Shown here piece after piece: positions 20,918 to 36,686 of a stretch of DNA of 64,000 nucleotides. This DNA comes from Janthinobacterium psychrotolerans (GTDB taxonomy: Bacteria; Pseudomonadota; Gammaproteobacteria; Burkholderiales; Burkholderiaceae_D): positions 1-64,000 of the forward strand of contig NZ_LOCQ01000039.1 in the NCBI RefSeq assembly GCF_001677885.1. Direction: 5' to 3'. Below the pieces are notes generated by a model. It searched no databases. It worked only from the letters and a program-made list of their open reading frames with translations, and had not been told where the DNA came from. The position numbers were made by a program, and so were the translations under genes. Position 1 is the stretch's first letter, and each line of letters begins with the position of its first letter.

Positions 20918-20920
20918 GGC

Positions 20921-22108
20921 TTAGTTTCCTTTGGCAACGGCTGGCGCGCTGGCGCTGCTGGCGACGGCGGCGGCCGGCAGCTTTTTCGGCACCGCCAGTT
21001 CCACCTGCTGGCCGTCCTTGAAGGTCGAGCCGGGCGTGCGCAGCACGGTGTCGCCGCTGGCCAGGCCGCTTTGCACTTCCCAGTGGCCGGTGCGGATATC
21101 GCGCGCGCCGATGCGCAGCACGGTCTTGTGCAGCGCCTTGTCTTTCACGGTCCAGGCATAGGTCTGGTCGCCGGCCTTGACCAGCGCGGAATCGGGAATC
21201 ATGACGGCGCTGACGCTGTCGGCTTCGATGCGCCCTTCCGCGTACAGGCCGGCCACGCGCGGCTGGGTCTTGTCATTGAAATCGACCAGCACCGCCACCT
21301 GGCGCGTGACGGCGTTGGCGGCCGGATCGACGCGGCGCACCTTGCCCAGGAAGTCCTGGCCCGGATAGCCGTTGATGCGGAAACGCACGGCCTGGCCCAC
21401 CTTGACCACGCCGATCTTGTCGGCCGACACCAGGCCTTCGAGGCGCATGCTGGTCGGGTCGATCACGCGGATGAGTTCCTTGCCGATCTGCGCCGTGTCG
21501 CCGTTGGACACCTTGCGCTCGCTGACGATGCCGTCGAACGGCGCACGCACGAGGGTGCGCTGCAGCTGCTGGCGCGCCTGGGCGGCGCGGCTCCTGGCGG
21601 CCGACAGGTCGCTTTGTGCATTGTTGCGGCGAATTTCCGTGTCTTCCAGCGCCTGGGTCGAGGTCATGCCGGAGGCGCGCAGGGTCTTCATGCGCTGGAA
21701 CATGCGTTCGGCCTGCTCCAGCACCTGGCTGGCGGCGCGGCTGGCTTCTTCGGCCGAATTGAGGCTGTCGCGGATCGAGGTTTCGTCCAGCTTGACGAGA
21801 ATATCGCCACGTTTCACGGCTTCGCCGTTTTCTTTCAGCACCTGGATCACCACCGCCGACACTTCGGCGCGCAGGTCCGCATTGCGCTCGGGCTGCACCG
21901 AGCCGGTAATCACCGGGCCCGACGCGAGCGCATTGCTTTCGATGGTCAGCATGTCTTCCGGAGAGATGATCAGTCTGGCTGCCGCGCCGGCTGCGGTTTT
22001 GCCATCCTTGCCATCCTTGCCGCCTCCCTTGCCTGGGTCTTTGGACTCTTTTCCGCAAGCGGCCAGTGCAGAAGCGATGGCCAGGACGAACAGGGTTTTG
22101 CGCAACAT
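20921..22108 (-). CDS. RND efflux periplasmic adaptor (membrane fusion protein)
   Basis: Starting at the ATG at 22108 (CGGAGAG upstream), the 395-residue protein has a lipobox (LASALAACGK), a Gly/Lys-rich linker, a biotinyl-lipoyl-like half (LRAEVSAVVIQVLKENGEAV), a coiled-coil hairpin (EEASRAASQVLEQAERMFQR), the returning lipoyl half (TLVRAPFDGIVSERKVSNGD) and beta-barrel domains. This is the MFP/HlyD-like adaptor of an RND pump, anchored by lipid to the inner membrane. It is co-transcribed with the permease gene that follows after a 3-base gap. Confidence 0.93.
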   Translation of the reverse strand: MLRKTLFVLAIASALAACGKESKDPGKGGGKDGKDGKTAAGAAARLIISPEDMLTIESNALASGPVITGSVQPERNADLRAEVSAVVIQVLKENGEAVKRGDILVKLDETSIRDSLNSAEEASRAASQVLEQAERMFQRMKTLRASGMTSTQALEDTEIRRNNAQSDLSAARSRAAQARQQLQRTLVRAPFDGIVSERKVSNGDTAQIGKELIRVIDPTSMRLEGLVSADKIGVVKVGQAVRFRINGYPGQDFLGKVRRVDPAANAVTRQVAVLVDFNDKTQPRVAGLYAEGRIEADSVSAVMIPDSALVKAGDQTYAWTVKDKALHKTVLRIGARDIRTGHWEVQSGLASGDTVLRTPGSTFKDGQQVELAVPKKLPAAAVASSASAPAVAKGN

Positions 22109-22303
22109 GGGTAACTCTCCGGATAGAAGGCAGTGCATATCAAACTGGCAACCGGGTAAGGCGCTGGCGACACGCACGATTATTTTTTTATTAAAACCGC
22201 AAGCGCCAGAGTATCCATGAGCGTCTCCGGCGATGTCAATCGGCCGATTCCTGTAATGCCGGAATCGGGGGGTGAAACGTAGTTTTTACGCCCTGAAACG
22301 CAA

Positions 22304-22325
22304 AACCCCGCCGGGTGGCGGGGTT
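22304..22325 (-). terminator. Rho-independent terminator of the DUF212 gene
   Basis: AACCCCGCC pairs with GGCGGGGTT over a 4-base loop. On the reverse strand it is followed by TTTTGCG. It lies 28 bases past the stop of the gene at 22353. Confidence 0.75.
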
Positions 22326-22352
22326 GGGGATTGACAGATGGAATAAAACGGA

Positions 22353-22775
22353 TCAGCTGAAGACGGCGTTGACCAGGAAACCGATCGCCACGCCCGTGCA
22401 CAGGCCGCCGGCAATTTCCACCAGCGTATGGCCCATGCGCTCGCGCAAATGGGTGTGCGCCACGCTGCCCGCTTCCTTCGCCAGGCGGTTGATGGCGGCG
22501 GCCTGCTTGCCGACGTGCTGGCGCAGGCTGTTGGCGTCGATGATGACGATAAAGGCCAGGGTCACGGCCACGCCGAAAGCCGGGTGGCCGATGCCTTCGC
22601 GCAGCGCGATCAGGGTCGCCATGCTGGACACGACGGCGCTGTGGTTGCTGGGAAAGCCGCCATTGCCGACCAGGCCGAAGGCCCATTGGCGCGTGCGGGC
22701 GCTGTTGATCAGGAACTTGATCGGGCCGACCAGTATCCAGGTTATCAGGGGCGTGACAAGGTAAGCGATATCCAC
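22353..22775 (-). CDS. Divergent PAP2 family (DUF212/YuiD-like) membrane protein
   Basis: The 140-residue protein has several hydrophobic segments and the motifs QWAFGLVGNGGFPSNHSAVV, DANSLRQHVGKQA and RERMGHTLVEIAGG. These are the signature of the divergent PAP2 family (acid phosphatase/vanadium-haloperoxidase related). The conserved SNH and GHT histidines are kept, so a lipid-phosphate phosphatase role is plausible but unproven. It is divergent from the DUF475 gene, with 216 bases between the starts. Confidence 0.87.
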   Translation of the reverse strand: MDIAYLVTPLITWILVGPIKFLINSARTRQWAFGLVGNGGFPSNHSAVVSSMATLIALREGIGHPAFGVAVTLAFIVIIDANSLRQHVGKQAAAINRLAKEAGSVAHTHLRERMGHTLVEIAGGLCTGVAIGFLVNAVFS

Positions 22776-22991
22776 GGGTGTTCCTTCTATATCTATGTAG
22801 ATGTTGGTCAGATGCCATTCCAGGCGCGCCGCAATTATCGCAGATCGCCCGCCGTGGCAGCACCGCCATTTTTCATGCGTATTTTTCAGACGTATTAAAC
22901 GCGGCGCGCTGCGGCAACTAATATAAAATCATGGCATATACAACAATTGACGTAAAACAACACGTCTCGAATAACACGTAACGGGGTCCTC

Positions 22992-24074
22992 ATGAAGCAT
23001 TTCAGAATTTCCTTTTTAGTGACCTTCATTTTGATGGCGGTCTCGGGCTGGTGGGGCTACACCCACGGTGGCACCAGCGGCATGCTGCAGGCGCTGTGGA
23101 TCACGGGCGTGCTGGGCATCATGGAAGTGTCGCTGTCGTTCGACAATGCGGTGGTCAACGCCTCGGTGCTGCGCCACTGGAATGAGTTCTGGCAAAAGCT
23201 GTTTCTGACGGTCGGCATCCTGGTGGCCGTGTTCGGCATGCGGCTGCTGTTCCCGCTGGTGATTGTTTCCGTCGCCACCGGTCTCGGCCTGATGGACGTG
23301 TGGACCATGGCCACCACCACGCCCGACATCTACGCCAGGCACCTGACGGACAACCATGCGCAAGTGGCGGCTTTTGGCGGCGCCTTTTTACTGCTGGTGT
23401 TCCTGAACTTTTTGTTTGACGACGAGAAGGAACTGCACTGGCTGGGCTGGGCCGAGGAAAAGGTCAATGCGCTGGGCACCGAAAGCCTGGCCGTGCTGAT
23501 CACCATGGGCGCCGTGGCCGCCTGCGTGGCGATGGGCCCGGCCGATGAAAAATACAGCGTGCTGGCAGCCGGCATCGTCGGCATCGCCGTCTACCTGGGC
23601 GTAAACTGGATCAGCGGCTTGCTGGAAGAAGGCGAACCGGACCTGCAGGACGATGAGGACGGCGCCGTGGCACCGGTGAAGAATGGCAATGGCGAACTGG
23701 TGAAAAACGTCGCGCGCGGCAGCATCGGCGGCTTCCTGTACCTGGAAGTGCTGGACGCCTCATTCAGCTTTGACGGCGTGATCGGCGCCTTTGCGATCAC
23801 CAACGACGTCGTCATCATCATGCTGGGCCTGGCGATCGGCGCCATGTTCGTGCGCTCGATGACGGTGTTCCTGGTGCACAAGGGCACCCTGGACGAGTTC
23901 GTCTACCTGGAACACGGTGCGCATTACGCCATCGGCATCCTGGCATTGATCATGCTGGGCTCGGTCAAGTACCATATCCCGGAATGGTTCACCGGCCTGT
24001 CCGGCGTGGCCTTTATCCTGGTGTCGCTGTGGTCGTCCCTGCGCTACCGCAAACGGCATGCGGCGCACGCTTGA
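22992..24074 (+). CDS. DUF475/TerC-like integral membrane protein
   Basis: The 360-residue protein has about nine membrane segments and two related halves with acidic in-membrane motifs: GVLGIMEVSLSFDNAVVNASVL and LEVLDASFSFDGVIGAFAIT. This places it in DUF475, a TerC/YkoY relative often found in tellurium-resistance-type clusters. TerC-family proteins are now linked to metal (Mn) efflux. It lies 101 bases upstream of terD and probably supplies the membrane component of this Ter cluster. There is no separate terC in view. Confidence 0.9.
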   Translation: MKHFRISFLVTFILMAVSGWWGYTHGGTSGMLQALWITGVLGIMEVSLSFDNAVVNASVLRHWNEFWQKLFLTVGILVAVFGMRLLFPLVIVSVATGLGLMDVWTMATTTPDIYARHLTDNHAQVAAFGGAFLLLVFLNFLFDDEKELHWLGWAEEKVNALGTESLAVLITMGAVAACVAMGPADEKYSVLAAGIVGIAVYLGVNWISGLLEEGEPDLQDDEDGAVAPVKNGNGELVKNVARGSIGGFLYLEVLDASFSFDGVIGAFAITNDVVIIMLGLAIGAMFVRSMTVFLVHKGTLDEFVYLEHGAHYAIGILALIMLGSVKYHIPEWFTGLSGVAFILVSLWSSLRYRKRHAAHA

Positions 24075-24175
24075 TATCGGCGATTTTGTCACCATATGCT
24101 TTCCGATGGAACAAGTGCGCGCACCTGATCCATACGGGCATGAAAAGTAATCCACCTCTATAAAAGGAGCACCAG

Positions 24176-24751
24176 ATGGCAATCAGTTTGCAAAAAGGCG
24201 GCAACGTCAACCTGAGCAAGGAAGCACCGAACCTGAAGAAGATCATCATCGGCCTCGGCTGGGATCCGCGTTCAACCGACGGCGCCACCTTCGACCTGGA
24301 TGGCAGCGCCTTTCTCCTGAAAAACGACGGCAAAGTACGTGGCGATTCCGACTTTATCTTCTACAACAACCTGAAATCGACCGATGGCTCCGTGGTGCAC
24401 ACCGGCGACAACACCACCGGCGAAGGCGAAGGCGACGATGAGCGCATCGAAATCGACCTGTCGCGCGTGCCGGCCGATATCGAACGCGTCAGCATCACCG
24501 TCACCATTCACGACGCCGACGCGCGCCGCCAGAACTTCGGCATGGTGTCGAAAGCCTTTATCCGCTGCCTGAACGCGGAAGGCGAACGCGAAATCGCCCG
24601 CTACGACCTGTCCGAAGACAGCTCGACGGAAACGGCGATGATCTTTGGCGAAATCTACCGCTACAACGGCGAATGGAAATTCAAGGCCATCGGCCAGGGT
24701 TTCAACGGCGGCCTCGGTCCCCTGGCCCGTTCGTTCGGCGTCAACGCCTGA
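24176..24751 (+). CDS. terD: TerD-family stress protein
   Basis: The 191-residue protein starts [52 protein letters not shown] and [20 protein letters not shown] are the acidic Ca2+-binding repeats of TerD/TerE. It ends [21 protein letters not shown]. Length and sequence are canonical. The ribosome site AAAGGAG is strong. TerD proteins are cytosolic or membrane-peripheral and belong to poorly understood stress systems. It is the first of two TerD-type genes in the cluster. Confidence 0.95.
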
Positions 24752-24776
24752 TCAGTCAGCACAGCACTTGGTCACG

Positions 24777-24808
24777 GCCGCCTGGTACATCACAGGCGGC
24801 TTTTTTTT
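24777..24808 (+). terminator. Strong rho-independent terminator after terD
   Basis: GCCGCCTG pairs with CAGGCGGC across an 8-base loop and is followed by eight Ts. It lies between terD and the AIM24-like gene, so it may uncouple or attenuate the downstream genes. Confidence 0.88.
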
Positions 24809-24819
24809 GGAGATTTATC

Positions 24820-25536
24820 ATGCCAGTATTTAGTGTCACCGGTGACGTCGATCCCTTCCTGCATGTCAGCATGAAACAGGGCGAAACCATCTATTGCGAG
24901 TCCGATGCAATGGTGATGATGGAAACGGCGCTCGACCTCAAAGGCAAGATGACGGGCGGCCTGGGCAGCGCCATCATGCGCCGCTTCGCCAACGGCGAGT
25001 CGTTCTTCCAGCAGCATATCGAAGCGGTGCGCGGCGGCGGCGACTGCCTGCTCTCGCCCACCCTGCCCGGCGCCATCGAAGTGGTCGATGTCGGCGCGCG
25101 CCAGTATCTGCTCAACGACGGCGCCTTTGTCGCCGCCACCTCGGGCACCGAAATGAAGGTGCGCACGCAAAGCATCGGCAACGCGCTGTTCGCGCAGTCG
25201 GGCGGCTTTTTCGTGATGGAGACGGCCGGCAGCGGCCAGGTGGTGGTGTCGGGCTTCGGCTCCATGTTCCAGCTCGACGTCGAGCCGGGCAAGGACGTGG
25301 TGATCGACAATTCGCACGTGGTCTGCTGGGACAACAGCCTGAAATATGAAATCTCGGTGACCACCGGCGGTGGCGCCAGCGGCGGCGGCATCGGTGGCTT
25401 CCTGGGCAATATTGTCAACAGCGTGACCAGTGGCGAAGGCATCGTGTTACGCTTTTCCGGTTCGGGCAAGGTCTTTATCTGCTCGCGCAACCGCGACGCT
25501 TTCCTGAAATGGACCGCATCGGGCAAAGCGGGTTAA
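24820..25536 (+). CDS. AIM24/TIGR00266 family protein
   Basis: The 238-residue protein has MKQGETIYCESDAMVMMETAL, LPGAIEVVDVGARQYLLNDGAFVA, SGGFFVMETAGSGQVVVSGFG and the Gly-rich GGGASGGGIGGFLGNIV. These are typical of the AIM24-like beta-roll (COG2013/TIGR00266). Relatives occur beside TerD genes and were proposed to bind ligands or membranes; the molecular role is unknown. The ribosome site GGAG sits directly after the terD terminator. A 125-base gap separates it from the ATP-grasp gene. Confidence 0.88.
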   Translation: MPVFSVTGDVDPFLHVSMKQGETIYCESDAMVMMETALDLKGKMTGGLGSAIMRRFANGESFFQQHIEAVRGGGDCLLSPTLPGAIEVVDVGARQYLLNDGAFVAATSGTEMKVRTQSIGNALFAQSGGFFVMETAGSGQVVVSGFGSMFQLDVEPGKDVVIDNSHVVCWDNSLKYEISVTTGGGASGGGIGGFLGNIVNSVTSGEGIVLRFSGSGKVFICSRNRDAFLKWTASGKAG

Positions 25537-25661
25537 TATTTTGTCGTTTTGCCATAGTTTTCAAGGCCAGGTCACGTGTGACTGGCCAGCATCTCCGCGC
25601 GCATGTATTCCTGTATTGCGCGCGGTTTTTCTTTCGCTTCCTTCTTCACCGGTCCCCGTAC

Positions 25662-26696
25662 ATGCATAGAGTCTGGTTCAACAAAACATTTTCCTCGGTC
25701 GCCACCGCCATGCGTTTGATACGCGAGGCCGACATCGCCGGCACCGGCGGCCAGCGCCGCTATCACCTGATCTATACCCATCCGAACGAACACGCCGCGG
25801 CCTTTCTGGCGGCCGATGAATACGCGGTCGAGCCAAGCGACCTGAAGGGCGAAGACTACCTGGAATGGTGTCTGGCGTTCTGCCGCGAACGCAATATCAC
25901 GATCTTCTGGCCGGGCCGGGCCGCCGGCAGGATTGCCAGCGCCCGCGCGCGCTTCGAAGCCATCGGCACGCGCGTGCTGAGCGTGGCCACCGAAGAAGTC
26001 CTGACACTGATGCATGACAAGGCGCGCTTTTGCGCCGGGCTGGACCTGCCGATGGCGCCGGTGGCCGACACGCGCGCCGTCAACGATATCGCCGAATACG
26101 ACGCCGCCTACGCCGAGCTGCGCCCGCGCCATGAACGCCTGTGCATCAAGCCGTCCGAATCCGTGTATGGCCTGGGCTTTGCCGTGCTCGATGAACGTTC
26201 GAGCGCCGAACTGCTGCTGGCCGGCGCAGCCTATAAAATCAACACGCAGGAATTGCGCGACGGCCTGGCGCGCATGGAAACCTTCAAGACCTTGCTGCTG
26301 ATGGAATACCTCGATGGCCATGAATACAGCGCCGACTGCGTGGCCGACCACGGCAGCCTGAAGTGCGCGATTCCGCGCAAAAAGCTGCATGCGCCGGGCA
26401 GCGGCCAGCTGATCGAACTGCGCGAGGAACTGCTGGCCGCCTGCGAGAAGCTGACGCGCGACTACCAGTTGAATGGCGTGTTCAATATCCAGTTCCGCGA
26501 AGGCGCGAACGGCCTGGCGCTGCTGGAGATCAATCCGCGCATGTCGGGCGGCATCGGCATGGCCTGCGCGGCCGGTCCCAATCTGCCGTATATCGCGCTG
26601 GCCGGTTTCGACCAGGGCTATGACCAGCTCACGATTCCTCCGATCCGCGAGGGCCTGCGCGTGGCCGAAGCGGGTTATCCGGTGGAACTGCCATGA
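25662..26696 (+). CDS. Ter-associated ATP-grasp enzyme
   Basis: Starting at ATG 25662 (MHRVWFNKTFSSVATAMRLI), the 344-residue protein has an N-terminal Rossmann-like pre-ATP-grasp domain (HPNEHAAAFLAADEYAVEP), an ATP-binding Lys segment (RLCIKPSESVYGLGF), LLMEYLDGHEYSADCVAD and the Mg-binding LLEINPRMSGGIGMACA. It matches the ATP-grasp family described with TerD genes (ATPgrasp_Ter). Such enzymes ligate a carboxylate to an amine or thiol. Its stop overlaps the next start (ATGA, 26693-26696), and it is the first gene of a six-gene coupled operon. Confidence 0.9.
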   Translation: MHRVWFNKTFSSVATAMRLIREADIAGTGGQRRYHLIYTHPNEHAAAFLAADEYAVEPSDLKGEDYLEWCLAFCRERNITIFWPGRAAGRIASARARFEAIGTRVLSVATEEVLTLMHDKARFCAGLDLPMAPVADTRAVNDIAEYDAAYAELRPRHERLCIKPSESVYGLGFAVLDERSSAELLLAGAAYKINTQELRDGLARMETFKTLLLMEYLDGHEYSADCVADHGSLKCAIPRKKLHAPGSGQLIELREELLAACEKLTRDYQLNGVFNIQFREGANGLALLEINPRMSGGIGMACAAGPNLPYIALAGFDQGYDQLTIPPIREGLRVAEAGYPVELP

Positions 26697-27850
26697 CGCT
26701 CGTGCGCCAGACCATGCCGACCGGCGAACTGACCTTGCAGGTCGACGAGGCGCGCTTTGCGCTGGGCGACCTGATCGGCTACGCGGCGCGCGCCAACGCC
26801 AAGCGCGGCTTTCTGTTCCTGTCCAAGGTGCTGGGCAAGCACTGGCCCGTCACGCCTGGCGCCATGGAAGCGATCCACGCCGACCTGGCCGCGCAGATCC
26901 CTGCCAGCCTGCCAGGCCCGGTGGTGTTTATCGCCATGGCGGAAACCGCCGTCGGTCTCGGCCAGGGCGTGTTCGAAGCCTGGCTGAAAGCCCATCCCGG
27001 CAGCGAAGGATTGTTCATCCACAGTTCGCGCTACCGCGTCGGCGAGATCCCCTTCTTTGAATTCGAAGAGTCGCACAGCCACGCGCCGCGCCAGTTCCTG
27101 CATCTGTCCGGCACCGCCAGCGGCGTGTTCGCGCGCGCGCGCAGCCTGGTGCTGATCGACGATGAAGCGTCGACCGGCAATACCTTCGCCAACCTGATTG
27201 AAGTGTGCCGCGCGCGCTATCGGCAACTGGAACGGCTGCACCTGGGCGTGATCACCAACTTCATGGGCCAGGAGGCCAACGCCGGCTTGAGCGCGCGCTT
27301 CGGCCTGCCCACCACCGTCGGCGCAGCGCTGTCCGGCCAATACGCGTTCCGCATGGGTGACACGCCGGCGCCCGTCGCCACCAGCGCCCAGCGTTTCGAG
27401 GAACACGCCGAGCGCGGTGCCAGCGACGCCTTTGGCCGCATCGGCATCGACCGCGCCTTGGCGCCGCCGCAAGCGCTGGCCGCGCGGCTGGCGCGTAACA
27501 TCGGCGACGGTGAATCCGTGCTGGTGCTGGGCACCGGCGAATTCATGCATCCGTCCTTCCTGCTGGGGCGCGAACTGGAAGCGCTGGGCAAGCAAGTGGT
27601 GGTGCAGTCGACCACCCGCTCGCCGATCCTGTCATGGGGCGCGGTCGGCCATATCGTGTCATGCGACGATAACTACGGCGAAGGCATCGCCAACTATCTG
27701 TACAACGTGGCACCCGGCCAGTACCGCCACGTTTTCATCTGCCATGAAACCCCGGCCAGCCCGGCGCTCATGCAACTCGCCGGCCAGCTCCATGGCCGCC
27801 TGTTCCACTTTCAGTCAGAGACCACAATTGAAGAAATTCCTGTTTGTTGA
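26693..27850 (+). CDS. Phosphoribosyltransferase with C-terminal TRSP domain
   Basis: The 385-residue protein has an N-terminal PRTase domain with the PRPP-binding loop SLVLIDDEASTGNTFANLIE (about residues 151-170). A second domain contains GDGESVLVLGTGEFMHPSFL and the namesake motif STTRSPI (TRSP at about 308-311). This is the PRTase_2-TRSP architecture described in Ter-linked biosynthetic operons. It would transfer or remove a ribose-5-phosphate group. The substrate is unknown. It overlaps the gene before by 4 bases and the gene after by 23. Confidence 0.9.
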   Translation: MTLVRQTMPTGELTLQVDEARFALGDLIGYAARANAKRGFLFLSKVLGKHWPVTPGAMEAIHADLAAQIPASLPGPVVFIAMAETAVGLGQGVFEAWLKAHPGSEGLFIHSSRYRVGEIPFFEFEESHSHAPRQFLHLSGTASGVFARARSLVLIDDEASTGNTFANLIEVCRARYRQLERLHLGVITNFMGQEANAGLSARFGLPTTVGAALSGQYAFRMGDTPAPVATSAQRFEEHAERGASDAFGRIGIDRALAPPQALAARLARNIGDGESVLVLGTGEFMHPSFLLGRELEALGKQVVVQSTTRSPILSWGAVGHIVSCDDNYGEGIANYLYNVAPGQYRHVFICHETPASPALMQLAGQLHGRLFHFQSETTIEEIPVC

Positions 27851-28580
27851 CCTGGACGACACACTGTTCCAGACCCCGAAAAAAGTACCTGGCGAGACCG
27901 ATCTGCAGCCAGCGGCCTACCTGAAAAACGGCGAGGCCTGCTCGTTTACCACGGCGCGCCAGCGCGCGTTTTTCGAATTCGCGCAAAGCGGCATGACCCT
28001 GATTCCGGCCACGGCCCGGAATGGCGACGCGTTTCGCCGCGTCGACCTGCCGTTTGCCAGCTACAGCGTGCTCGATTACGGCGGCATCGTGCTGCAGCCG
28101 GGCGGCGCAGTCGATACGGGCTGGCTGGCGCTGATGCAGGACGATATGCAGACGGCATTGCCGGGTTTGCGGGACGCCATGCGCATCATCGACGACTTCC
28201 AGGTCAAGGCGGGCATGCCGTCGCGCGCGCGCCTGATCGAAGACTACGGCACGCCGTTCTACATCGTCGTCAAAGACCATGAGGCGCGCGGCGAACGCCT
28301 GGCCGATATCGAACAGCAGGTGCTGCTGGACTGGATCGCCGGCGAAGGCGCGGACTACTTCATCCACCGCAACGGCAACAACCTGGCCGTGCTGCCCAAG
28401 ACCCTGAACAAGGCGCGCGCCGTGGCCTATCTGCGCGCGGAACTGGAAGCCGAACATGGCCCGATTTTGAGCTTCGGCATGGGCGACAGCCGCTCGGACG
28501 CGCGCTTCATGGCCGCCTGCGACTACGCCATCATCCCCAACGGCACCCAGCTGGCGGCGCTGACGGTGGGCTCCCTATGA
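27828..28580 (+). CDS. HAD-superfamily phosphatase of the Ter operon (TTG start)
   Basis: Homology begins with KKFLFVDLDDTLFQTPKKVP, and the best start is a TTG at 27828 inside the previous gene, giving 250 residues. No ATG or GTG in the frame lies nearby. DLDDT is HAD motif I (Asp8, Asp10). The later FGMGDSRSDARFMAACDYAI is motif IV, and the cap is of the Cof-like type. It likely dephosphorylates the pathway intermediate. The TTG start and deep overlap suggest translational coupling and low expression relative to neighbours. Confidence 0.85.
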   Translation: MKKFLFVDLDDTLFQTPKKVPGETDLQPAAYLKNGEACSFTTARQRAFFEFAQSGMTLIPATARNGDAFRRVDLPFASYSVLDYGGIVLQPGGAVDTGWLALMQDDMQTALPGLRDAMRIIDDFQVKAGMPSRARLIEDYGTPFYIVVKDHEARGERLADIEQQVLLDWIAGEGADYFIHRNGNNLAVLPKTLNKARAVAYLRAELEAEHGPILSFGMGDSRSDARFMAACDYAIIPNGTQLAALTVGSL

Positions 28581-29683
28581 ACGCCACCGCGCAGCATTTC
28601 AGCGGCAGCTACCGCCAGCAAGACGTCGAGTTTCTGCTCACGCCGATGGCCCTGGAGCCGATCCGCGACCTGGCCGAGAAAGAGCGCCTGATCCAGTCCG
28701 GCCAGCGCCATTACAGCGAAATGCTGTCGCCCGAGTCCCTGCCCTCGCCGGCCTACCTGGCGCTGTTCCAGAGCGCGTTTGCGGCCAACCGCCTGCAGAT
28801 GGCGCGCGACTGCCTGCGCCTGGCCGCACTGATCGCGGCGCGCCGCGACGGCGCCATTACGCTGGTGTCGCTGGCGCGCGCCGGCACGCCGGTGGGCGTC
28901 ATCCTCAAGCACTTGCTGACGCAGGTGTTCCAGCGCGCGTGCACGCATTATTCGGTCTCCATCATCCGCGACCGCGGCATCGACACCAACGCCATACAGC
29001 ACATCCTCACGCACGGCCATGCGGCGGACTCGATCGTGTTTGTCGACGGCTGGACGGGGAAAGGCGTGATCTCGCGCGAACTGCGCCAGAGCGTCAACGA
29101 CTACAACGCGCAGCACGGCACCAGCATCGACGGCGGCCTGTTCGTGCTGTCGGACCTGGCCGGCACGGCCGCCTGCGCGGCATCATCCGACGACTATCTG
29201 ATCCCGTCGAGCATCCTGAACGCCACGGTGTCCGGCCTGGTCAGCCGCTCGGTATTGAATGAAATGGTCGCTCCCGGCGAGTTCCATGGCTGCGTGTATT
29301 ACGCGCAGTTCGAAGCGCACGACCAGTCGCGCCAGTTCGCCGACGGCCTGGTGGCCGACGCCATCGCAATCGCCGGCAGCAGCGGCATTCCGCTGGCGGT
29401 GGCGACCGATGCGCCGGTCATGGCGGCGCGCTCGCAAGCCTATATGGCGCAGGCGCAAAGCGACTACGGCATCACCGACATCAACCTGATCAAGCCCGGC
29501 ATCGGCGAGGCGACGCGCGTGCTGCTGCGCCGCGTGCCGGAGCGCCTGATTGTGCGCGACACGAATGCGCCGGACGTGGCACATTTGCTGCTTCTGGCAC
29601 AAGAAAAAGCCATCCCCGTTACCGTACAACCGGCGCTGCCTTACCAGGCGGTCGCCCTTATCAGGAGCGCAGTCGATGGATAA
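28577..29683 (+). CDS. StiP-domain phosphoribosyltransferase-like protein
   Basis: The 368-residue protein opens HFSGSYRQQDVEFLLTPMAL, the family start of PF11202, which is annotated 'cysteine protease StiP' and was reinterpreted as a PRTase fold. VSLARAGTPVGVILKHLL and ADSIVFVDGWTGKGVISREL are the PRTase-like core, the latter resembling a PRPP loop. The protease name has little support that I can see. It overlaps the HAD gene by ATGA (28577-28580) and the next gene by 8 bases. It is thus the second PRTase in the operon. Confidence 0.88.
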   Translation: MNATAQHFSGSYRQQDVEFLLTPMALEPIRDLAEKERLIQSGQRHYSEMLSPESLPSPAYLALFQSAFAANRLQMARDCLRLAALIAARRDGAITLVSLARAGTPVGVILKHLLTQVFQRACTHYSVSIIRDRGIDTNAIQHILTHGHAADSIVFVDGWTGKGVISRELRQSVNDYNAQHGTSIDGGLFVLSDLAGTAACAASSDDYLIPSSILNATVSGLVSRSVLNEMVAPGEFHGCVYYAQFEAHDQSRQFADGLVADAIAIAGSSGIPLAVATDAPVMAARSQAYMAQAQSDYGITDINLIKPGIGEATRVLLRRVPERLIVRDTNAPDVAHLLLLAQEKAIPVTVQPALPYQAVALIRSAVDG

Positions 29684-30647
29684 CTCCATACACCCACAAA
29701 GTGAACACAAGGCGGCACTCGGCGCATCGATGTATGTGCCCACCACGCACAAGGATTTGCTGGCCATCGCCAATGGCGACAAATTCAGCCATTTACGCTC
29801 GGTGATCTTTTGCACTGAAGACGCGATCGCCGAGCGCGATCTCAGTTACGCGCTGTTCAACCTGTCGCTGGCGCTGCAGAACATGAGCGAAGCGTCCGAC
29901 ACCCTGCGCTTTGTCCGCGTGCGCAATGTCGACGTCTTGTCGCGCGTGCTGGCCATGCCCGGCGTGGACAAACTGGCCGGCTTCGTGCTGCCCAAATCGA
30001 CGCGCCACAATTTTGCGTCCTACTTCGAGCAGGTGCGCCACACGCATCACCTGCTGATGCCGACGCTGGAAACGGCCGAAGTATTCGACGACGAAGAGAT
30101 GAAACTGTTCCGACGCACGCTGGCCGCGCCCGAGGTACGCGCGCGCATCCTGGCACTGCGCATCGGCGGCAACGACCTGCTGGCGCTATTGGGCCTGCGC
30201 CGCCCGACCACCGGCACCATCTATCAAACGCCGCTGGGCCAGGTGATCGGCCGCCTGGTCACCATCTTCAAGCCGCACGGCTTCGAGCTCTCGGCGCCCG
30301 TGTTCGAGCACCTGACGCAGGACGACTGGCTGGCCGCCGAAGTGGCGCAGGACATGGCGCACGGCATGATCGCCAAGACCGCCATCCACCCGGACCAGGT
30401 GCCGCAGATCGAGCGCCACTACCAGGTGGCGCAGTCGGACATCGAACTGGCGCTGCGCATCATCGATCCGGACAGCCCTGCCGTGTTCCGCATGCAGGAA
30501 TCGATGTGCGAAGTGGCCACCCACAGCAGCTGGGCCCAGCGCGTGATCGAGCAGGCGCGCCTGTTCGGCATCCGCCATGCCGATGGCGCCATCCTGCCTC
30601 TCCATCTGAATCCACTCACCAGTGACGAAGGGACTGCACGACCATGA
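29676..30647 (+). CDS. CitE/HpcH-like C-C bond lyase of the Ter operon
   Basis: The 323-residue protein (MDNSIHPQSEHKAALGASMY) has SVIFCTEDAIAERDLSYAL, GFVLPKSTRHNFASYF, ALRIGGNDLLALLGLRR and GMIAKTAIHPDQVPQIERHY. These follow the CitE-type TIM-barrel layout: a metal-binding Glu/Asp pair and the G-K-x-x-I-H-P-x-Q-v loop. It fits the Ter-linked 'C-C_Bond_Lyase' family. It would cleave or form a carbon-carbon bond, perhaps on a CoA ester or oxo-acid. Its start overlaps the previous gene by 8 bases and its stop overlaps the next by 4. Confidence 0.88.
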   Translation: MDNSIHPQSEHKAALGASMYVPTTHKDLLAIANGDKFSHLRSVIFCTEDAIAERDLSYALFNLSLALQNMSEASDTLRFVRVRNVDVLSRVLAMPGVDKLAGFVLPKSTRHNFASYFEQVRHTHHLLMPTLETAEVFDDEEMKLFRRTLAAPEVRARILALRIGGNDLLALLGLRRPTTGTIYQTPLGQVIGRLVTIFKPHGFELSAPVFEHLTQDDWLAAEVAQDMAHGMIAKTAIHPDQVPQIERHYQVAQSDIELALRIIDPDSPAVFRMQESMCEVATHSSWAQRVIEQARLFGIRHADGAILPLHLNPLTSDEGTARP

Positions 30648-31891
30648 CCAATTTCACACGCGGCCAAAAAGGCAAGCTGGCCGACCTGGGCCTGAACGGC
30701 CCGTTTGCCGTCACCCTCGACATCGCCTCCGGTTCGATGGAAGTCGATGTCAGCTGCTTTGGCGTCGACGCCAATGGCAAGCTGTCGGACGACCGCTACA
30801 TGGTCTTCTACAACCAGAAAAGCGCGCCCGACAACGCCGTTTCGGTGGAACTGAACGGCCCGCGCTCGGTGTTCCAGATCGACCTGGCGCGCCTGCCCGC
30901 CGCCATCGACAAGCTGGTCTTCACGGCGGCCACCGAGCAAGGCAGCATGCGCGCGCTGGGTTCTTCCAGCCTGGCGCTGGGCCCCGCCGCCACCTTCGCC
31001 TTTGCCGGCGTTGATTTCCAGGATGAAAAAGCCGTCATTATCGGCGAGCTGTATCGCCGCGACGGCAGCTGGCGCTTCGGCGCCGTCGGCCAGGGTTTCG
31101 CGGGCGGCCTGGGCGCGCTGCTGAAACACTTTGGCGGCAGCGAGGCGGGATCGCCGGCGCCAGCGCCGGCCGCTGTGCCTGCATCGGCCCCAGCGCCAGC
31201 CGCGCCGCCGGCCAATAAAATCTCGCTGTCGAAAATCCGCCTGGAAAAGCGCGGCGACAAGATCTCGCTCGACAAGCGCGACAGCGGCGGCTATGGCCGC
31301 ATCAAGGTCAACCTGAACTGGAACCAGAACGCCGCGCAAGGCCAGGCGCCGGCCTCGAAACTCGACACCGGTTTCCTCGGCAAGCTGTTCGCCAGGCCGG
31401 CCGGCCGCGCGGGAGGCATCGACCTCGATATCGGCTGCCTGTTCGAATTGAGCAATGGCAGCAAGAGCGCGGTGCAGGCACTGGGCAACAGCTGGGGCGC
31501 GTTCGAGCGTCCGCCCTACATCCACCTGGAAGGCGACGACCGCACGGGCAGCATCAGCAGCGGCGAGAACATCTTTATCAACGGCACCCACTTCGACCAG
31601 ATCAAGCGCGTGCTGGTGTACGCCTTTATCTACGAGGGCGTGCCCAACTGGGCCGCCACCGATGGCATGGTGACCATCGAAATCCCCGGCCAGCCGACCG
31701 TCGAAGTGCGCCTCGACAGCGACAGCCAGCACGCCATGTGCGCGATCGCCATGCTGGAAAACCAGGGCGGCAACCTGCAGGTAACAAAATTGGTGGAATA
31801 CTTCGGCGGCCAAGGTAAAATCACGGCGCACCAGGCGATGGACGAGCGCTACAATTTCGGCTTGAACTGGAAAGCAGGCCGCAAGGATTAA
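30644..31891 (+). CDS. Two-domain TerD/TerA-like protein
   Basis: The 415-residue protein has an N-terminal TerD-like domain (FTRGQKGKLADLGLNGPF to AVGQGFAGGLGALLKHFGG), a Pro/Ala linker (about residues 165-190), a basic segment ISLSKIRLEKRGDKISLDK, and a C-terminal TerA-type domain (IKVNLNWN, GIDLDIGCLFELSNGSKSAV, DDRTGSISSGENIFING, RYNFGLNWKAGRKD). This two-domain form is typical of TerA. The first domain lacks part of the acidic D-x-D-x-D set seen in terD at 24176, so calcium binding there may be weaker. It closes the coupled operon. Confidence 0.9.
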   Translation: MTNFTRGQKGKLADLGLNGPFAVTLDIASGSMEVDVSCFGVDANGKLSDDRYMVFYNQKSAPDNAVSVELNGPRSVFQIDLARLPAAIDKLVFTAATEQGSMRALGSSSLALGPAATFAFAGVDFQDEKAVIIGELYRRDGSWRFGAVGQGFAGGLGALLKHFGGSEAGSPAPAPAAVPASAPAPAAPPANKISLSKIRLEKRGDKISLDKRDSGGYGRIKVNLNWNQNAAQGQAPASKLDTGFLGKLFARPAGRAGGIDLDIGCLFELSNGSKSAVQALGNSWGAFERPPYIHLEGDDRTGSISSGENIFINGTHFDQIKRVLVYAFIYEGVPNWAATDGMVTIEIPGQPTVEVRLDSDSQHAMCAIAMLENQGGNLQVTKLVEYFGGQGKITAHQAMDERYNFGLNWKAGRKD

Positions 31892-31915
31892 CGCTACCTC
31901 TTATAGATAATCACC

Positions 31916-32290
31916 ATGACCCCCACCACCAAAAAAGTCAGCATCGCCTTTGTCATCTTCCTGTTGGCGGGCAGCCTGCTGCTGGCCGCCTATACCTGGC
32001 TGGCACTGAGCTTTTCGTATTCGGAAGGCGAACGGGCCGGCCATTTATTGAAATTTTCCAAGCGGGGCTGGGTCTGCAAGACCTGGGAGGGCGAGCTGAT
32101 GCTGACGGCGCTGCCGGGCACGATACCGGAAAAATTCCAGTTCAGCGTGCGCGACGAAGCGGTGGCAAAGCAGCTGACGGCCGCCGCCGGCAAGCATATC
32201 CTGATCAGCTATAACCAGCACAAGGGCGTGCCGACGCAGTGCTTCGGCGAGACCGAATACTATGCCGACAAGGTGGTGCCGAGTCCCTGA
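31916..32290 (+). CDS. Single-pass membrane protein of unknown function
   Basis: The 124-residue protein has one N-terminal membrane segment (VSIAFVIFLLAGSLLLAAYT) and a soluble domain with FSKRGWVCKTWEGELMLTALPG and HILISYNQHKGVPTQCFGET. I have a memory of similar conserved hypothetical proteins in Burkholderiales but no function. It starts 24 bases after the TerA-like gene, so it may belong to the Ter operon, and it ends 7 bases before the convergent coiled-coil gene. Confidence 0.72.
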   Translation: MTPTTKKVSIAFVIFLLAGSLLLAAYTWLALSFSYSEGERAGHLLKFSKRGWVCKTWEGELMLTALPGTIPEKFQFSVRDEAVAKQLTAAAGKHILISYNQHKGVPTQCFGETEYYADKVVPSP

Positions 32291-32297
32291 GCCGATG

Positions 32298-34736
32298 TCA
32301 GTCTTCCTGACGTGGGCTCCAGACGGTGCCGGTGACGGCATTGGTATGCGTCAGGCGGTCCAGCACTTCGCGCGTCATGTTGGCCGACGTCATCTGCTCG
32401 GCCTTGGCGCGGGCGGCCGTCAGCGCGGCTGAAAATTCTCCCTGTTTTTCACGCAGGCTGGCGCGCAGGTCGGCCAGTTCGCGTTCCTGCTGCTGCGCGC
32501 GGCGCATTTCCAGTTCCAGCAGCTGCTGCTTGGCCACCGCCATCGCGCGCGTGGTCTCGGCCGCCTTGCGCTGCAGGGCCGCATGGGCCTGTGCGCTGTC
32601 GAGCAAGGCTTGCTGGGCTTCGCGCTTTTCCTGGGCCGCCTGGCGCGCGGCGATTTCAGCCTGTTCGCGCAGGCGCATCGCGTCCTGCGCCTGCTGTTCC
32701 ATCAGCGCACGCGCTTCGGCCGCCGCCGCCGCCTGCTTTTCCGCGTCGAGGCGGCCGGCGATCGCTTTCGAGGCGCGTTCTTCGGCACTCGTCGCCTGGC
32801 GCTGCTGCGCCAGCTTTTCATCGATCAGCGCCAGCGACTCGCGTTCGCAGGCGACAAACACGCGTTCCGATTCCAGCAGCGCTTCGGCGGCCTGCGCCTT
32901 GTCGCTTTCCACGCGGGCGCGCTCGCCATGCACCAGGCCCAGCTCCACCGCCAGACGCGCCTGCGCCTGCACCGCCTGCGCGGCGGCGGCCTTCTGCTCG
33001 CCGTCGACCAGCGCCTGCTCGAGCAAAATGCGGGTGGCGGCAGCTTCCCTGTCGGCCGCGTCCTTCAGAGCCAGTTCCGCGGTCTGCTGCGCGCGCAGCG
33101 CCTCCGCCTGCGCCAGCTCGGCGCAGGTGCGCTCTTCGGTGGCCTGCAAGGCCAGCGTTTCCGCGTCCAGCCTGGCCTTCAGCGCGGCGATGGCGGCTTG
33201 TTCCGCCCTGACGGTTGCCTGCTCCTGCGCCGCCAGGCGTTCTGCCTGCCGCGCTTTTTCTTCAGCCAGTTCGGCTGCCTGGCGCTGCGCCGCCAGTTGT
33301 TCCTGCGCGCTTGCCAGCGCCGCTTGCCCGGCGGCGTTCTCGCGTTCGGCCAGCTCGCTGGCCGCCTGCGCCGCCAGTGCGCGTTCCCGGGCCAGGCGTG
33401 ACGCTTCTTGCTGCGCTTCGAGTTCGCGCGCCGCCGCCAGGCTGGCGTCGTGTTCGGCCGCTTCGCGTGCACGGGTTTCCTGCAGCGCCGCCGCTTCCGC
33501 CTCCATGCGCGCGTGGCCGGCGATTTCAGCGTCCTGCTCGGCGGCGATGCGGGCCAGCGCCACGGCGCGCAGCTGGCGGTCCACTTCGATGCGCGCCTCG
33601 GTGGCGGCCAGGATGCGCACGTCGGCGTCGCGGCGCGCCTGGGCGCTGGCGGCGGCCACCATTTCCAGCCGTTCGCGGTGGATCGCCGCGTCGCGCAGTT
33701 CTTTTTCCGTCTGCAGGCGCAAATGCAGCGATTGCGCCGCATGGCGTTCCGATTCGGCCTGGGCCAGCGCGATCGCTTCGCGTTCCTGTTCCAGGTGGGC
33801 CAGCGCGCGCGCCTCTTCCAGCGCCCGCACTTCGGCGGCGGCGCGGTTGAAGGCCGATTCGAGCGCGATCTGGTCGGCGCGCTCGCGCTGCACCGTCAGT
33901 TCCAGCGCCTCGCTTTCCGCTTCGGCCAGCATTTGCGCCGTCTTGCGCGCCCCATGGGCATGGCGCTCGCGCTCGCGCGCCATCACGGCGACCCTGGCGT
34001 CGGCCGAGGCGATGCCGACCATTTCCTCCTTGGCCGCCTGCACGGCGGCGACACGTTCGACCGCCTGCAAGCGCGCCTGTTCGGTTTGTACCTGCAACTC
34101 TTCGGCGGCGCGCGCAGCCTGTTCGGCCAGTTCCGACTGCACCGCCACCTGTTCGCTGGCGCGCAGGCGGTTTTCCTGCTCGGCGCGCGTGCGCTGTTCG
34201 GCGGCCAGGCGGATTTCATTGTCCGCTTCCACGCGGGCGCGCAGTTCAGCCGTTTCCAGCTTGACCGCTTCCAGACGGGCCACGCTCGCTTGCGCTGCGG
34301 CGCGCATGGTTTCCAGCCGGTCGCGGTTGGCGGCGATGGCCTCTTCGGCCGCTTGCGCGCTTTGCTGGGCGGCGGCGGTGGCGGCGGCGTCGATGGCGGC
34401 GCGGTCTTCGGCCAGCGAGCGCACGCGCGCCTCGGCCAGGGCCCGGCTTTCGGCGGCGCAGGTGGCCTTGGCTTCCGCTTCAACCCTGGCGATGGCTTCG
34501 TGGATGGCTTTCAGTTCCATCTGCTGGCGCCCGCCAGCCGCTTCCGGGATGTCGCCCTCGCCATCGCTTTCTGGCGCAGGCGACACCGGCACGGCCTTGG
34601 CCTGGGCCACGGGCGTGCCGGCCGCCGGGTCGAGGTCCTGGAAATCATGCAGCGAGACGATGCTGTCCTGGTCGAACTCGTCGTCGTTGAGGGCGGCGGC
34701 TTGCTGATTGTGCTGTGCTGGCATGCGGGTATGCAT
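32298..34736 (-). CDS. Very long Ala/Glu-rich coiled-coil protein
   Basis: From the ATG at 34736 (MHTRMPAQHNQQAAALNDDE, with GAGAAATT upstream) the product has 812 residues. The first 90 are acidic and likely disordered. About 700 residues of uninterrupted heptad-type sequence follow, rich in Ala, Glu, Gln and Arg (for example EEAIAANRDRLETMRAAAQA). A short C-terminal tail contains DRLTHTNAVTGTVWSPRQED. There is no signal peptide, membrane segment or enzymatic motif. It should form a long cytoplasmic rod, perhaps a structural or scaffold protein. I do not recognise a family. It lies convergent to the Ter cluster. Confidence 0.8.
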   Translation of the reverse strand: MHTRMPAQHNQQAAALNDDEFDQDSIVSLHDFQDLDPAAGTPVAQAKAVPVSPAPESDGEGDIPEAAGGRQQMELKAIHEAIARVEAEAKATCAAESRALAEARVRSLAEDRAAIDAAATAAAQQSAQAAEEAIAANRDRLETMRAAAQASVARLEAVKLETAELRARVEADNEIRLAAEQRTRAEQENRLRASEQVAVQSELAEQAARAAEELQVQTEQARLQAVERVAAVQAAKEEMVGIASADARVAVMARERERHAHGARKTAQMLAEAESEALELTVQRERADQIALESAFNRAAAEVRALEEARALAHLEQEREAIALAQAESERHAAQSLHLRLQTEKELRDAAIHRERLEMVAAASAQARRDADVRILAATEARIEVDRQLRAVALARIAAEQDAEIAGHARMEAEAAALQETRAREAAEHDASLAAARELEAQQEASRLARERALAAQAASELAERENAAGQAALASAQEQLAAQRQAAELAEEKARQAERLAAQEQATVRAEQAAIAALKARLDAETLALQATEERTCAELAQAEALRAQQTAELALKDAADREAAATRILLEQALVDGEQKAAAAQAVQAQARLAVELGLVHGERARVESDKAQAAEALLESERVFVACERESLALIDEKLAQQRQATSAEERASKAIAGRLDAEKQAAAAAEARALMEQQAQDAMRLREQAEIAARQAAQEKREAQQALLDSAQAHAALQRKAAETTRAMAVAKQQLLELEMRRAQQQERELADLRASLREKQGEFSAALTAARAKAEQMTSANMTREVLDRLTHTNAVTGTVWSPRQED

Positions 34737-34859
34737 AATTTCTCGCGTATCGGGTGAAGTGCAAATTCCTGTTGGAATTATTACCACCATTATCGGGTCT
34801 GCGGCCAGGCATCAGCGCGCCAAGCAGAGGCCTGTTTACCGTGCTTTTCGTGCCTTAGC

Positions 34860-35882
34860 TCAGATAGGCCACAGCGGCGCTTCGTCCATGAGAGCGACCT
34901 GTTCGCGCAATTCGAGTATGCGGTCCTGCCAGTAACGTTGCGTGTTAAACCACGGGAAGGCCACCGGAAAGGCCGGATCGTCCCAGCGGCGCGCCAGCCA
35001 GGCCGAATAATGGATCAGCCGCAGGGTGCGCAGCGCCTCGACCAGGTACAGCTGGCGCGGCTCGAAATCGCAAAAGTCCTCATAGCCGGCCAGGATGTCG
35101 CTCATCTGGCGCACCTGGTCGGCGCGCTCGCCCGACAGCATCATCCACAGGTCCTGGATGGCCGGGCCCATGCGGCTGTCGTCGAAGTCGACGAAATGCG
35201 GGCCGGCGTCGGTCCACAGCACATTGCCGCCATGGCAATCGCCATGCGTGCGCAGCAGGCTCACGTCGCCGGCGCGGTCGTAGCAGCGCCTGACGCCGTC
35301 GAGCGCCTGCTGCGCCACGCTGGAGTACGCGGCCACCAGTTCGGGCGGCAGGAAGCCGCCCGCCAACAAGAATTCGCGCGGCTCGACGCCAAAGGTGTGC
35401 GGATCGAGCACCGGACGCTCCAGGTAGGCCGACAAGGCGCCGACGGCGTGGATGCGGCCAATAAAGCGCCCGGTCCACTCCAGGGTGGCCGGGTCGTCGA
35501 GCTCGGGCGCGCGCCCGCCATGGCGGGGAAACACGGCAAAGCGGAAGCCCTGGTGCTGGTGCAGCGTGCCGCCGTTGATCTCCAGCGCCGGCACCACCTG
35601 GATTTCACGCTCGACCAGTTCCGACACGAACGCGTGCTCTTCGAGGATGGCGGCGTCGCTCCAGCGCCCGGGGCGGTAGAACTTGACCACCAGCGGCGCG
35701 CTGTCCTCGATGCCGACCTGGTAGACCCGGTTTTCATAGCTGTTCAGGGCCAGCAGGCGGCCATCGCCGTACAGGCCAACGCTGTCCAGAGCGTCAAGCA
35801 CGCAATCGGGGCTCAGTGCGGAATAAGGGTGGACGGGCCTGTCGTCCTGCTGCGGCGGGTTTTCGTTGTGCATAAGCGCCAT
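34860..35882 (-). CDS. srkA: Stress response kinase A (YihE/RdoA)
   Basis: The 340-residue protein (start ATG 35882; ATG 35873 also possible) belongs to the APH-like kinase fold. [29 protein letters not shown] holds the nucleotide-binding Lys, [17 protein letters not shown] is the catalytic loop, and [20 protein letters not shown] is the Mg-binding segment. This is the full SrkA signature. SrkA is a Ser/Thr kinase that protects E. coli from stress-induced death. It is divergent from the UPF0149 gene, with under 100 bases between the starts. The usual dsbA neighbour is not here. Confidence 0.92.
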
Positions 35883-35975
35883 TGTACGGCGCACCAGGGC
35901 GCGCCGCATAAACACTTCGGCGGCGCGGCCCGGCAAGGCGTATACTGTCCGCTTACATTCAATAAAGAGCAAGCC

Positions 35976-36686
<711 letters not shown>

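Follow-up and report, generated by a model that had tools for sequence, protein, structure and literature searches.

What does the enzyme operon that travels beside tellurite resistance (Ter) genes make, and which proteins receive the product? The question is raised by a 64,000-nucleotide stretch of the Janthinobacterium psychrotolerans genome (contig NZ_LOCQ01000039.1, positions 1 to 64,000; hereafter the window), in which open reading frames and Pfam matches reveal one copy of a Ter enzyme module as a block of six forward-strand genes at 25662-31891. In 5' to 3' order these encode an ATP-grasp ligase (ATPgrasp_Ter; 25662-26696; PF15632, E-value 3e-43), a phosphoribosyltransferase with a TRSP domain (PRTase_2-TRSP; 26693-27850; PF15609, E 1e-56, and PF12500, E 2e-19), a HAD-IIB-like phosphatase with a TTG start at 27828 (27828-28580), StiP, with PRTase-like and PELOTA_1 (L7Ae-like) domains (28577-29683; PF11202, E 6e-100, and PF15608, E 8e-33), a CitE-like C-C bond lyase with an ATG start at 29676 (C-C_Bond_Lyase; 29676-30647; PF15617, E 9e-92) and TerA, a TerD domain joined to a second TerD-like domain (30644-31891; 41% identity over 393 columns to TerA of an IncHI2 plasmid, E 2e-88). 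Successive genes overlap by 4, 23, 4, 8 and 4 bases at the five junctions, suggesting that translation of the six genes is coupled. Our answer, to which we assign a probability of roughly 60%, is that the operon is a Ter-linked biosynthetic module making a ribosylated small molecule for Ter proteins.

An original prediction, made from the letters of the window alone, had read the block as six genes overlapping end to end by 4-23 bases and closing with a two-domain TerD protein, and our measurements bear out both points. It had also proposed an undescribed biochemical system, a claim contradicted by the Pfam families already named for the Ter module (ATPgrasp_Ter, PRTase_2, TRSP, StiP, PELOTA_1 and C-C_Bond_Lyase), by the gene order of an IncHI2 plasmid and by earlier theory. 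We take the contents of the block (ATPgrasp_Ter, PRTase_2-TRSP, HAD, StiP-PELOTA and C-C_Bond_Lyase) to be those of the Ter-linked biosynthetic module described in 2012. "Undescribed" is too strong because a nucleoside-like metabolite had been predicted for Ter systems in that year (Anantharaman, Iyer and Aravind, as cited in passages of PMC8115787 and PMC12054061) and the idea recurs in an excerpt of PMC7824862, where the Ter system is said to produce derivatives of nucleosides or nucleotides, possibly sensed by TerB and TerD. The remark that no metabolite had been assigned agrees with our own search, which found none assigned to the module in the open-access literature (subscription papers lay outside the search). 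The window operon is a new copy of a known, widespread and unsolved Ter module.

The make-up of the module was followed across loci collected by a StiP profile search, from which the best 80 of at least 580 relatives were named; several of the fetched stretches stop at contig ends, so gene counts are lower bounds of presence. All five enzyme genes are held by 60 of the 80 named loci, 13 lack the ligase only and 7 have fewer, which argues that the six-gene arrangement is not due to chance. Counted by enzyme, the ligase is missing from 20 stretches, PRTase_2 from 6, the HAD from 3 and the lyase from 2.

The two phosphoribosyltransferases (PRTases) are central to the proposed chemistry. Residue conservation was read from alignments of 40-66 sequences (redundant Janthinobacterium rows and cut genes excluded), and the catalytic roles of conserved residues are our assignments by family resemblance. 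In PRTase_2-TRSP, the loop for phosphoribosyl pyrophosphate (PRPP) retains D156, D157, E158, T161, G162 and T164 in 54 of 54 sequences, as the TRSP domain retains R309, S310 and P311. The AlphaFold model of this protein has a predicted local distance difference test score (pLDDT) of 93.4, and its best match in the PDB is adenine phosphoribosyltransferase (APRT; E 9e-7). A PRPP loop with two acidic residues and a modelled PRTase fold together point to a type I phosphoribosyltransferase. A search of PDB sequences with PRTase_2 returned weak matches only, including chance hits on viral envelope proteins for the part preceding TRSP and for its start; because these matches were weak and some of them due to chance, we claim no fold for TRSP.

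In StiP, R101, G103, D157, G158, W159, G161, K162 and G163 are invariant among 66 sequences, A102 is kept in 63 and T160 in 64. The AlphaFold model (pLDDT 92.3) has 50 listed fold matches, among which the rows with a root-mean-square deviation (rmsd) of at most 5.6 Å are HPRT and PyrR. The C-terminal domain matches L7Ae at E 0.002, and K306, G308, E311, R314, R318 and R319 of this tail are present in all 66 sequences. StiP models as a PRTase-like fold followed by an L7Ae-like domain. The Pfam and database names say something else: were the protein a cysteine protease, as the family name of PF11202 has it, the module would process a peptide, and C239 (64 of 66 sequences) does lie near H237 (66 of 66). 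The probability of this seems to us close to negligible, since C239 is replaced by Ser in locus L131, by Val in L142 and by Ala in L051, no protease appears among the 50 listed fold matches, and the residues resembling a PRPP loop and a pyrophosphate loop do not vary. The evidence suggests that the label "cysteine protease StiP", borne by 38 of the 40 plasmid rows listed, misleads.

The HAD protein brings the module into contact with a family already studied at the bench. D8, D10, T62, K195, D220 and D224 are present in 42 of 42 Ter HADs. A profile of these proteins finds PDB entries 6cj0 and 6d3v/6d3w, named "Trehalose phosphatase", at E 2e-82, and the window HAD alone matches 6cj0 at E 3e-30 (phmmer). 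The HAD encoded on the Pseudomonas aeruginosa plasmid CP109686, in a Ter operon whose PRTase_2 and StiP genes flank it, shares 99.6% identity with the 6cj0 protein, which is 93.9% identical to the HAD of plasmid pN-O82J1 (L057) and 29.6% identical to that of the window. Passages of PMC6838324 describe an extrachromosomal P. aeruginosa trehalose phosphatase that is active on trehalose-6-phosphate, name its Cys85 and Cys231, and report inhibition by a phthalimide with a half-maximal inhibitory concentration of 2.1 uM. The Ter HADs of two P. aeruginosa plasmids (L057 and L155) contain only two cysteines, at 85 and 231, and Cys231 (window numbering) occurs in 42 of 42 Ter HADs. The plasmid origin and the cysteine positions suggest that the assayed enzyme is a Ter HAD, and the cysteine positions that it is the 6cj0 protein. 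No paper with both trehalose-phosphatase and ter terms was found by a search that needed three of five terms.

Could the HAD then be a true trehalose-6-phosphate phosphatase and the module a part of trehalose stress metabolism? The near identity of 6cj0 to a Ter-operon HAD and the activity given in the passages of PMC6838324, for an enzyme sharing its cysteine positions with the plasmid Ter HADs, speak for it. The window genome moreover encodes both OtsA and OtsB (OtsB at 196119-196727 of contig C4, G000, adjoining OtsA), and since OtsA is found in 34 of 40 genus genomes, the window's included, trehalose-6-phosphate exists in the genus. We nevertheless judge this explanation highly improbable. 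Neither the window HAD nor 6cj0 nor the HAD of locus L060 matches Trehalose_PPase (PF02358) at E up to 1, and the HAD of the IncHI2 plasmid (L058) reaches 16 bits against a cut-off of 27; the window HAD shows no likeness to the OtsB encoded in the same genome (E 0.54); and trehalose synthesis has no use for two PRTases. OtsA was also sought in 35 module genomes outside the genus, where it scored over the cut-off in 3, weakly below it in 1 and gave no match in 31, the count covering module-bearing genomes only, selected from the 80 named loci and including several drafts. Because 31 of the 35 have no OtsA match, trehalose-6-phosphate is unlikely to be the general natural substrate of the HAD, and the activity on it is probably a surrogate. 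The activity still indicates that the family acts on a glycoside phosphorylated at its primary carbon, a description that would also fit a ribosyl 5-phosphate. As with StiP, the findings suggest that a database label misleads, here "trehalose phosphatase", which 3 of 30 listed rows carry.

The remaining two enzymes also have intact sites. The ligase keeps K120, K163, E289 and N291 in 40 of 40 sequences, and the lyase E48, D49, R81, E132, D167, K234, H238, P239 and Q241 in 60 of 60. The Glu and Asp of the lyase, which we take to be metal ligands, and its IHPxQ stretch, presumably binding coenzyme A (CoA), suggest that it has kept the signatures of a CoA-thioester lyase. No NCBIfam model matched any of the five enzymes over its cut-off. 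The protein classes named in the original prediction (an ATP-grasp enzyme, a PRTase-TRSP protein and a HAD with intact sites, a CitE-like lyase) thus hold up in the family matches, invariant sites and APRT-like model; it had also named loss of PRPP or HAD catalytic residues in relatives as a sign against it, and the alignments contain no such loss.

Which of these enzymes form the core? Among 398 phylum genomes, StiP scores over its cut-off in 12, with 4 more weak matches, and PRTase_2 in 12, with 20 more weak; these are the same 12 genomes, the window's own included. A lyase match above 200 bits occurs in 8 of the 12 and in no other of the 398, the lower-scoring matches looking like ordinary CitE relatives. 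For the 6 named loci without PRTase_2 beside StiP, the genomes of L115, L130, L138 and L140 and the Vibrio record of L056 were searched, and PRTase_2 was found elsewhere in the genome or record in all five. That Vibrio parahaemolyticus record (CP099927) carries two StiP genes (L056/L194), one with a HAD and the other with a lyase, PRTase_2 and TerD proteins. Of the 11 phylum loci besides the window, 10 have a HAD next to StiP. Smaller sets exist: in phage ME3, where PRTase_2 is adjacent, the set consists of PRTase_2, HAD and StiP only, and a minimal locus (L188; G227, contig C14, 28000-46000) reads TerD, TerD, PRTase_2, HAD, StiP, a Na/Ca exchanger and TerB, with no lyase, ligase or DUF475 TerC matched in the same stretch.

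The ligase is seldom found elsewhere when it is missing from the locus. Genomes of 12 of the 20 ligase-less loci were searched, and a strong ATPgrasp_Ter match was present only in G752 (145 bits). All other matches in the 12 genomes scored at most 32.1 bits, 10 of these 17 lying in open frames of 1071-1120 codons, as long as carbamoyl-phosphate synthase; the bare cut-off would count 6 of the 12 genomes, yet the family also matches 13 of 14 control genomes. No consistent replacement enzyme was seen among 20 proteins of the ligase- or lyase-less loci L185, L187, L188 and L193, where the matched neighbours were hydrogenase maturation, transposase, tyrosinase, ATPase, cation exchanger, TerD, TerB and housekeeping genes. 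The five enzymes have correlated pairwise distances (Pearson 0.91-0.95, with 28-57 loci for each pair), as expected for enzymes that travel together, and shared host phylogeny could give the same result. As judged from gene content, the core is the two PRTases, usually with the HAD, and the ligase and lyase are dispensable; because these two are optional across loci, the minimal chemistry would be that of the PRTase pair, usually plus the phosphatase. The original prediction had all these enzymes acting in a joint synthesis. Ligase and lyase are indeed present in the window, and in the minimal module they have no part, as the loci that do without them indicate.

From the gene content, the intact active sites, the pairing of the PRTases and the optional ligase and lyase, all observed computationally, we infer an order of reactions, a product and a receiver. 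PRTase_2-TRSP and StiP, both PRPP-dependent, would attach phosphoribose to an acceptor, and removal of the 5-phosphate by the HAD would yield a nucleoside-like, ribosylated molecule. In this lineage the CitE-like lyase and the ATP-grasp ligase may elaborate that molecule or its precursor, by making or breaking a C-C bond and by ligation. The likely receivers would be TerA and TerD of the same locus, with a coupling to the membrane protein TerC; that either binds the product is a guess, as it is in the published proposal. The block is preceded on the forward strand by a TerC-like membrane protein of the DUF475 type (22992-24074; DUF475, E 1e-106; TerC, E 1.5e-17), then by a single-domain TerD (24176-24751; E 9e-87) and an AIM24/TIGR00266 family protein (24820-25536; AIM24, E 2e-55; TIGR00266 over its cut-off). 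A signal acting on metal or membrane handling would fit, because the recurrent neighbours are TerD or TerA and a cation membrane protein (TerC of two types, or the Na/Ca exchanger of L188).

Several observations weigh against this account. The open-access search gave no assigned metabolite. The best HPRT row for StiP has only E 0.0018 and a template modelling (TM) score of 0.45, and three unrelated rows outrank it at E <0.001 (rmsd 10.8-23.3 Å); the PRPP loop of StiP, DGWTGKG, is unusual in having one Asp; and PDB sequence matches are weak for both PRTases. The eleventh phylum locus, L185 (= L045), has PRTase_2, StiP and lyase with no HAD on its contig, and the phosphatase may for this reason be replaceable. 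A TerC, TerD or TerA match of at least 60 bits is present in 70 of the 80 named loci and absent from 10 (L088, L096, L115, L122, L129, L130, L131, L137, L138 and L140), of which L131, L138 and L140 are full 21-kb stretches and the other seven at most 12.6 kb; L185, L187 and L142 likewise have no Ter gene in the stretch. In L115, L138 and L140, Ter genes adjoin PRTase_2 on another contig. Finally, Klebsiella terZ-F supplied in trans gave E. coli MG1655 tellurite resistance, according to passages of PMC8115787; since terZ-F alone sufficed, the module enzymes are not needed for that resistance.

The likeness of StiP to PyrR and L7Ae also admits readings in which RNA is involved. StiP might be a PyrR-like PRTase turned RNA-binding regulator, the enzymes serving mainly to sense PRPP or bases and to adjust Ter expression. 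PyrR is among the proteins that the model resembles, the L7Ae match (E 0.002) comes with six residues conserved in 66 of 66 sequences, and a hairpin with an 8-bp G+C stem followed by TTTTTC stands at 25595-25625 (forward strand), between AIM24 and the enzyme operon, with a 23-base near-palindrome at 25565-25587, between AIM24 and the ligase, ahead of it. Judged by eye, a similar hairpin occurs in 16 of 21 aligned upstream stretches, most of the Janthinobacterium rows looked at, and at locus L071 the stem bases are altered yet still pair. The hairpin looks like a terminator, however, and could possibly be a terminator or attenuator of the enzyme operon; it went unseen in 5 of the 21 rows, and an Rfam search of 20000-36000 at E 1 gave a single, meaningless match far under its threshold. 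A regulatory role would leave HAD, lyase and ligase unexplained, and we regard it as unlikely.

Alternatively, StiP could act on RNA directly, transferring phosphoribose from PRPP to a hydroxyl or base of an RNA held by the L7Ae-like domain, after which the HAD would remove the phosphate. The fusion of a PRTase-like to an L7Ae-like domain invites this thought, and a ribosyl-ribose phosphate would be a fitting substrate for a HAD family that takes a disaccharide phosphate (trehalose-6-phosphate). No RNA substrate was found, nothing places RNA in the active site, and the position of the L7Ae Asn, presumably the residue that contacts RNA, aligns with Gly or Ala in StiP; the proposal is very unlikely. 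If it were true, the product would be a ribosylated RNA or a ribosyl-ribose nucleoside serving as a bacterial stress mark, to which we know of no bacterial counterpart. A ribosylated small molecule made for Ter proteins remains our preferred reading.

The module is common in the genus and on mobile elements. In a search of 149 relatives, the lyase scored about 298-309 bits in 38 of 40 Janthinobacterium genomes, the window's own included, the exceptions being G021, where the match is no more than weak, and G026, a draft 88% complete. StiP matches 2568 of 72,556 plasmid records. Three phage records match StiP and three PRTase_2, two of each being phage ME3, and the 139 pattern matches among viral contigs include 2 relatives (IMG/VR L141 and L142). 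The arrangement of L141 resembles that of a P. aeruginosa plasmid, and this contig may be a plasmid and not a virus; in L142 the genes are shuffled, the HAD match is weak and Ter matches are absent. The window genome has three more Ter loci, at C5 100646-103918 (TerD and two TerA-like genes), C8 183724-186905 (TerC, TerD, AIM24, TerD) and C2 57169-58635 (one TerA-like gene), and none of the five enzymes lies in the 16-20 kb stretches around them. PADLOC anti-phage defence models matched 0 of the 9 locus proteins at E 0.001. Directly downstream of the operon and convergent with it is an 830-residue, Ala/Glu-rich, coiled-coil-like frame (32298-34790, reverse strand).

New here are a connection to a phosphatase family with a solved structure and an assay, the recognition of the PRTase pair as the core, and the evidence against StiP being a protease. 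The question of the product has stood since 2012 for a module that is common on plasmids. It becomes testable because the phosphatase family has already been purified and crystallised with a working assay, which gives a direct handle on the substrate; the problem narrows to two PRTases, usually accompanied by a phosphatase, as the minimal set; and a Janthinobacterium with its single copy on the chromosome is well suited to pursuing it.

Compared with the known Ter-linked module, the window copy has all five enzymes and likewise adjoins TerD, TerA and TerC. The search for the same gene order in other genomes, suggested by the original prediction, found it on a Salmonella IncHI2 plasmid (L058) and a Polaromonas plasmid (L059). 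The P. aeruginosa plasmids (L057 and L155) share the enzyme order except for an extra gene after the ligase, which on CP109686 is a transposase gene. Between ligase and PRTase_2 of pN-O82J1 lies a "trypsin-like peptidase" (8888-10027 of L057) with a weak TerA-like match, and the viral-database contig L141 has a weak TerA-like match at the same place. In contrast to the plasmid-borne copies, the module lies on the main chromosome in finished relatives of the window genome; the TerC of the window is of the DUF475 type, AIM24 sits between TerD and the enzymes, and TerA closes the operon, whereas on the IncHI2 plasmid TerA stands in the opposite operon. The window HAD belongs to the same family as the P. 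aeruginosa "trehalose phosphatase" (6cj0, 6d3v, 6d3w), which has the same operon position on CP109686, but the two share 29.6% identity. PyrR, HPRT and APRT, all type I PRTases, resemble the window enzymes in modelled fold, modestly so for StiP, and, for PRTase_2, in the PRPP loop; the window enzymes differ by an extra TRSP or PELOTA domain and, in StiP, by the loop DGWTGKG. The lyase, lastly, has the putative metal ligands and IHPxQ stretch in common with CitE, RipC and malyl-CoA lyases, and it falls in a separate family, PF15617, far under the RipC and CitE cut-offs.

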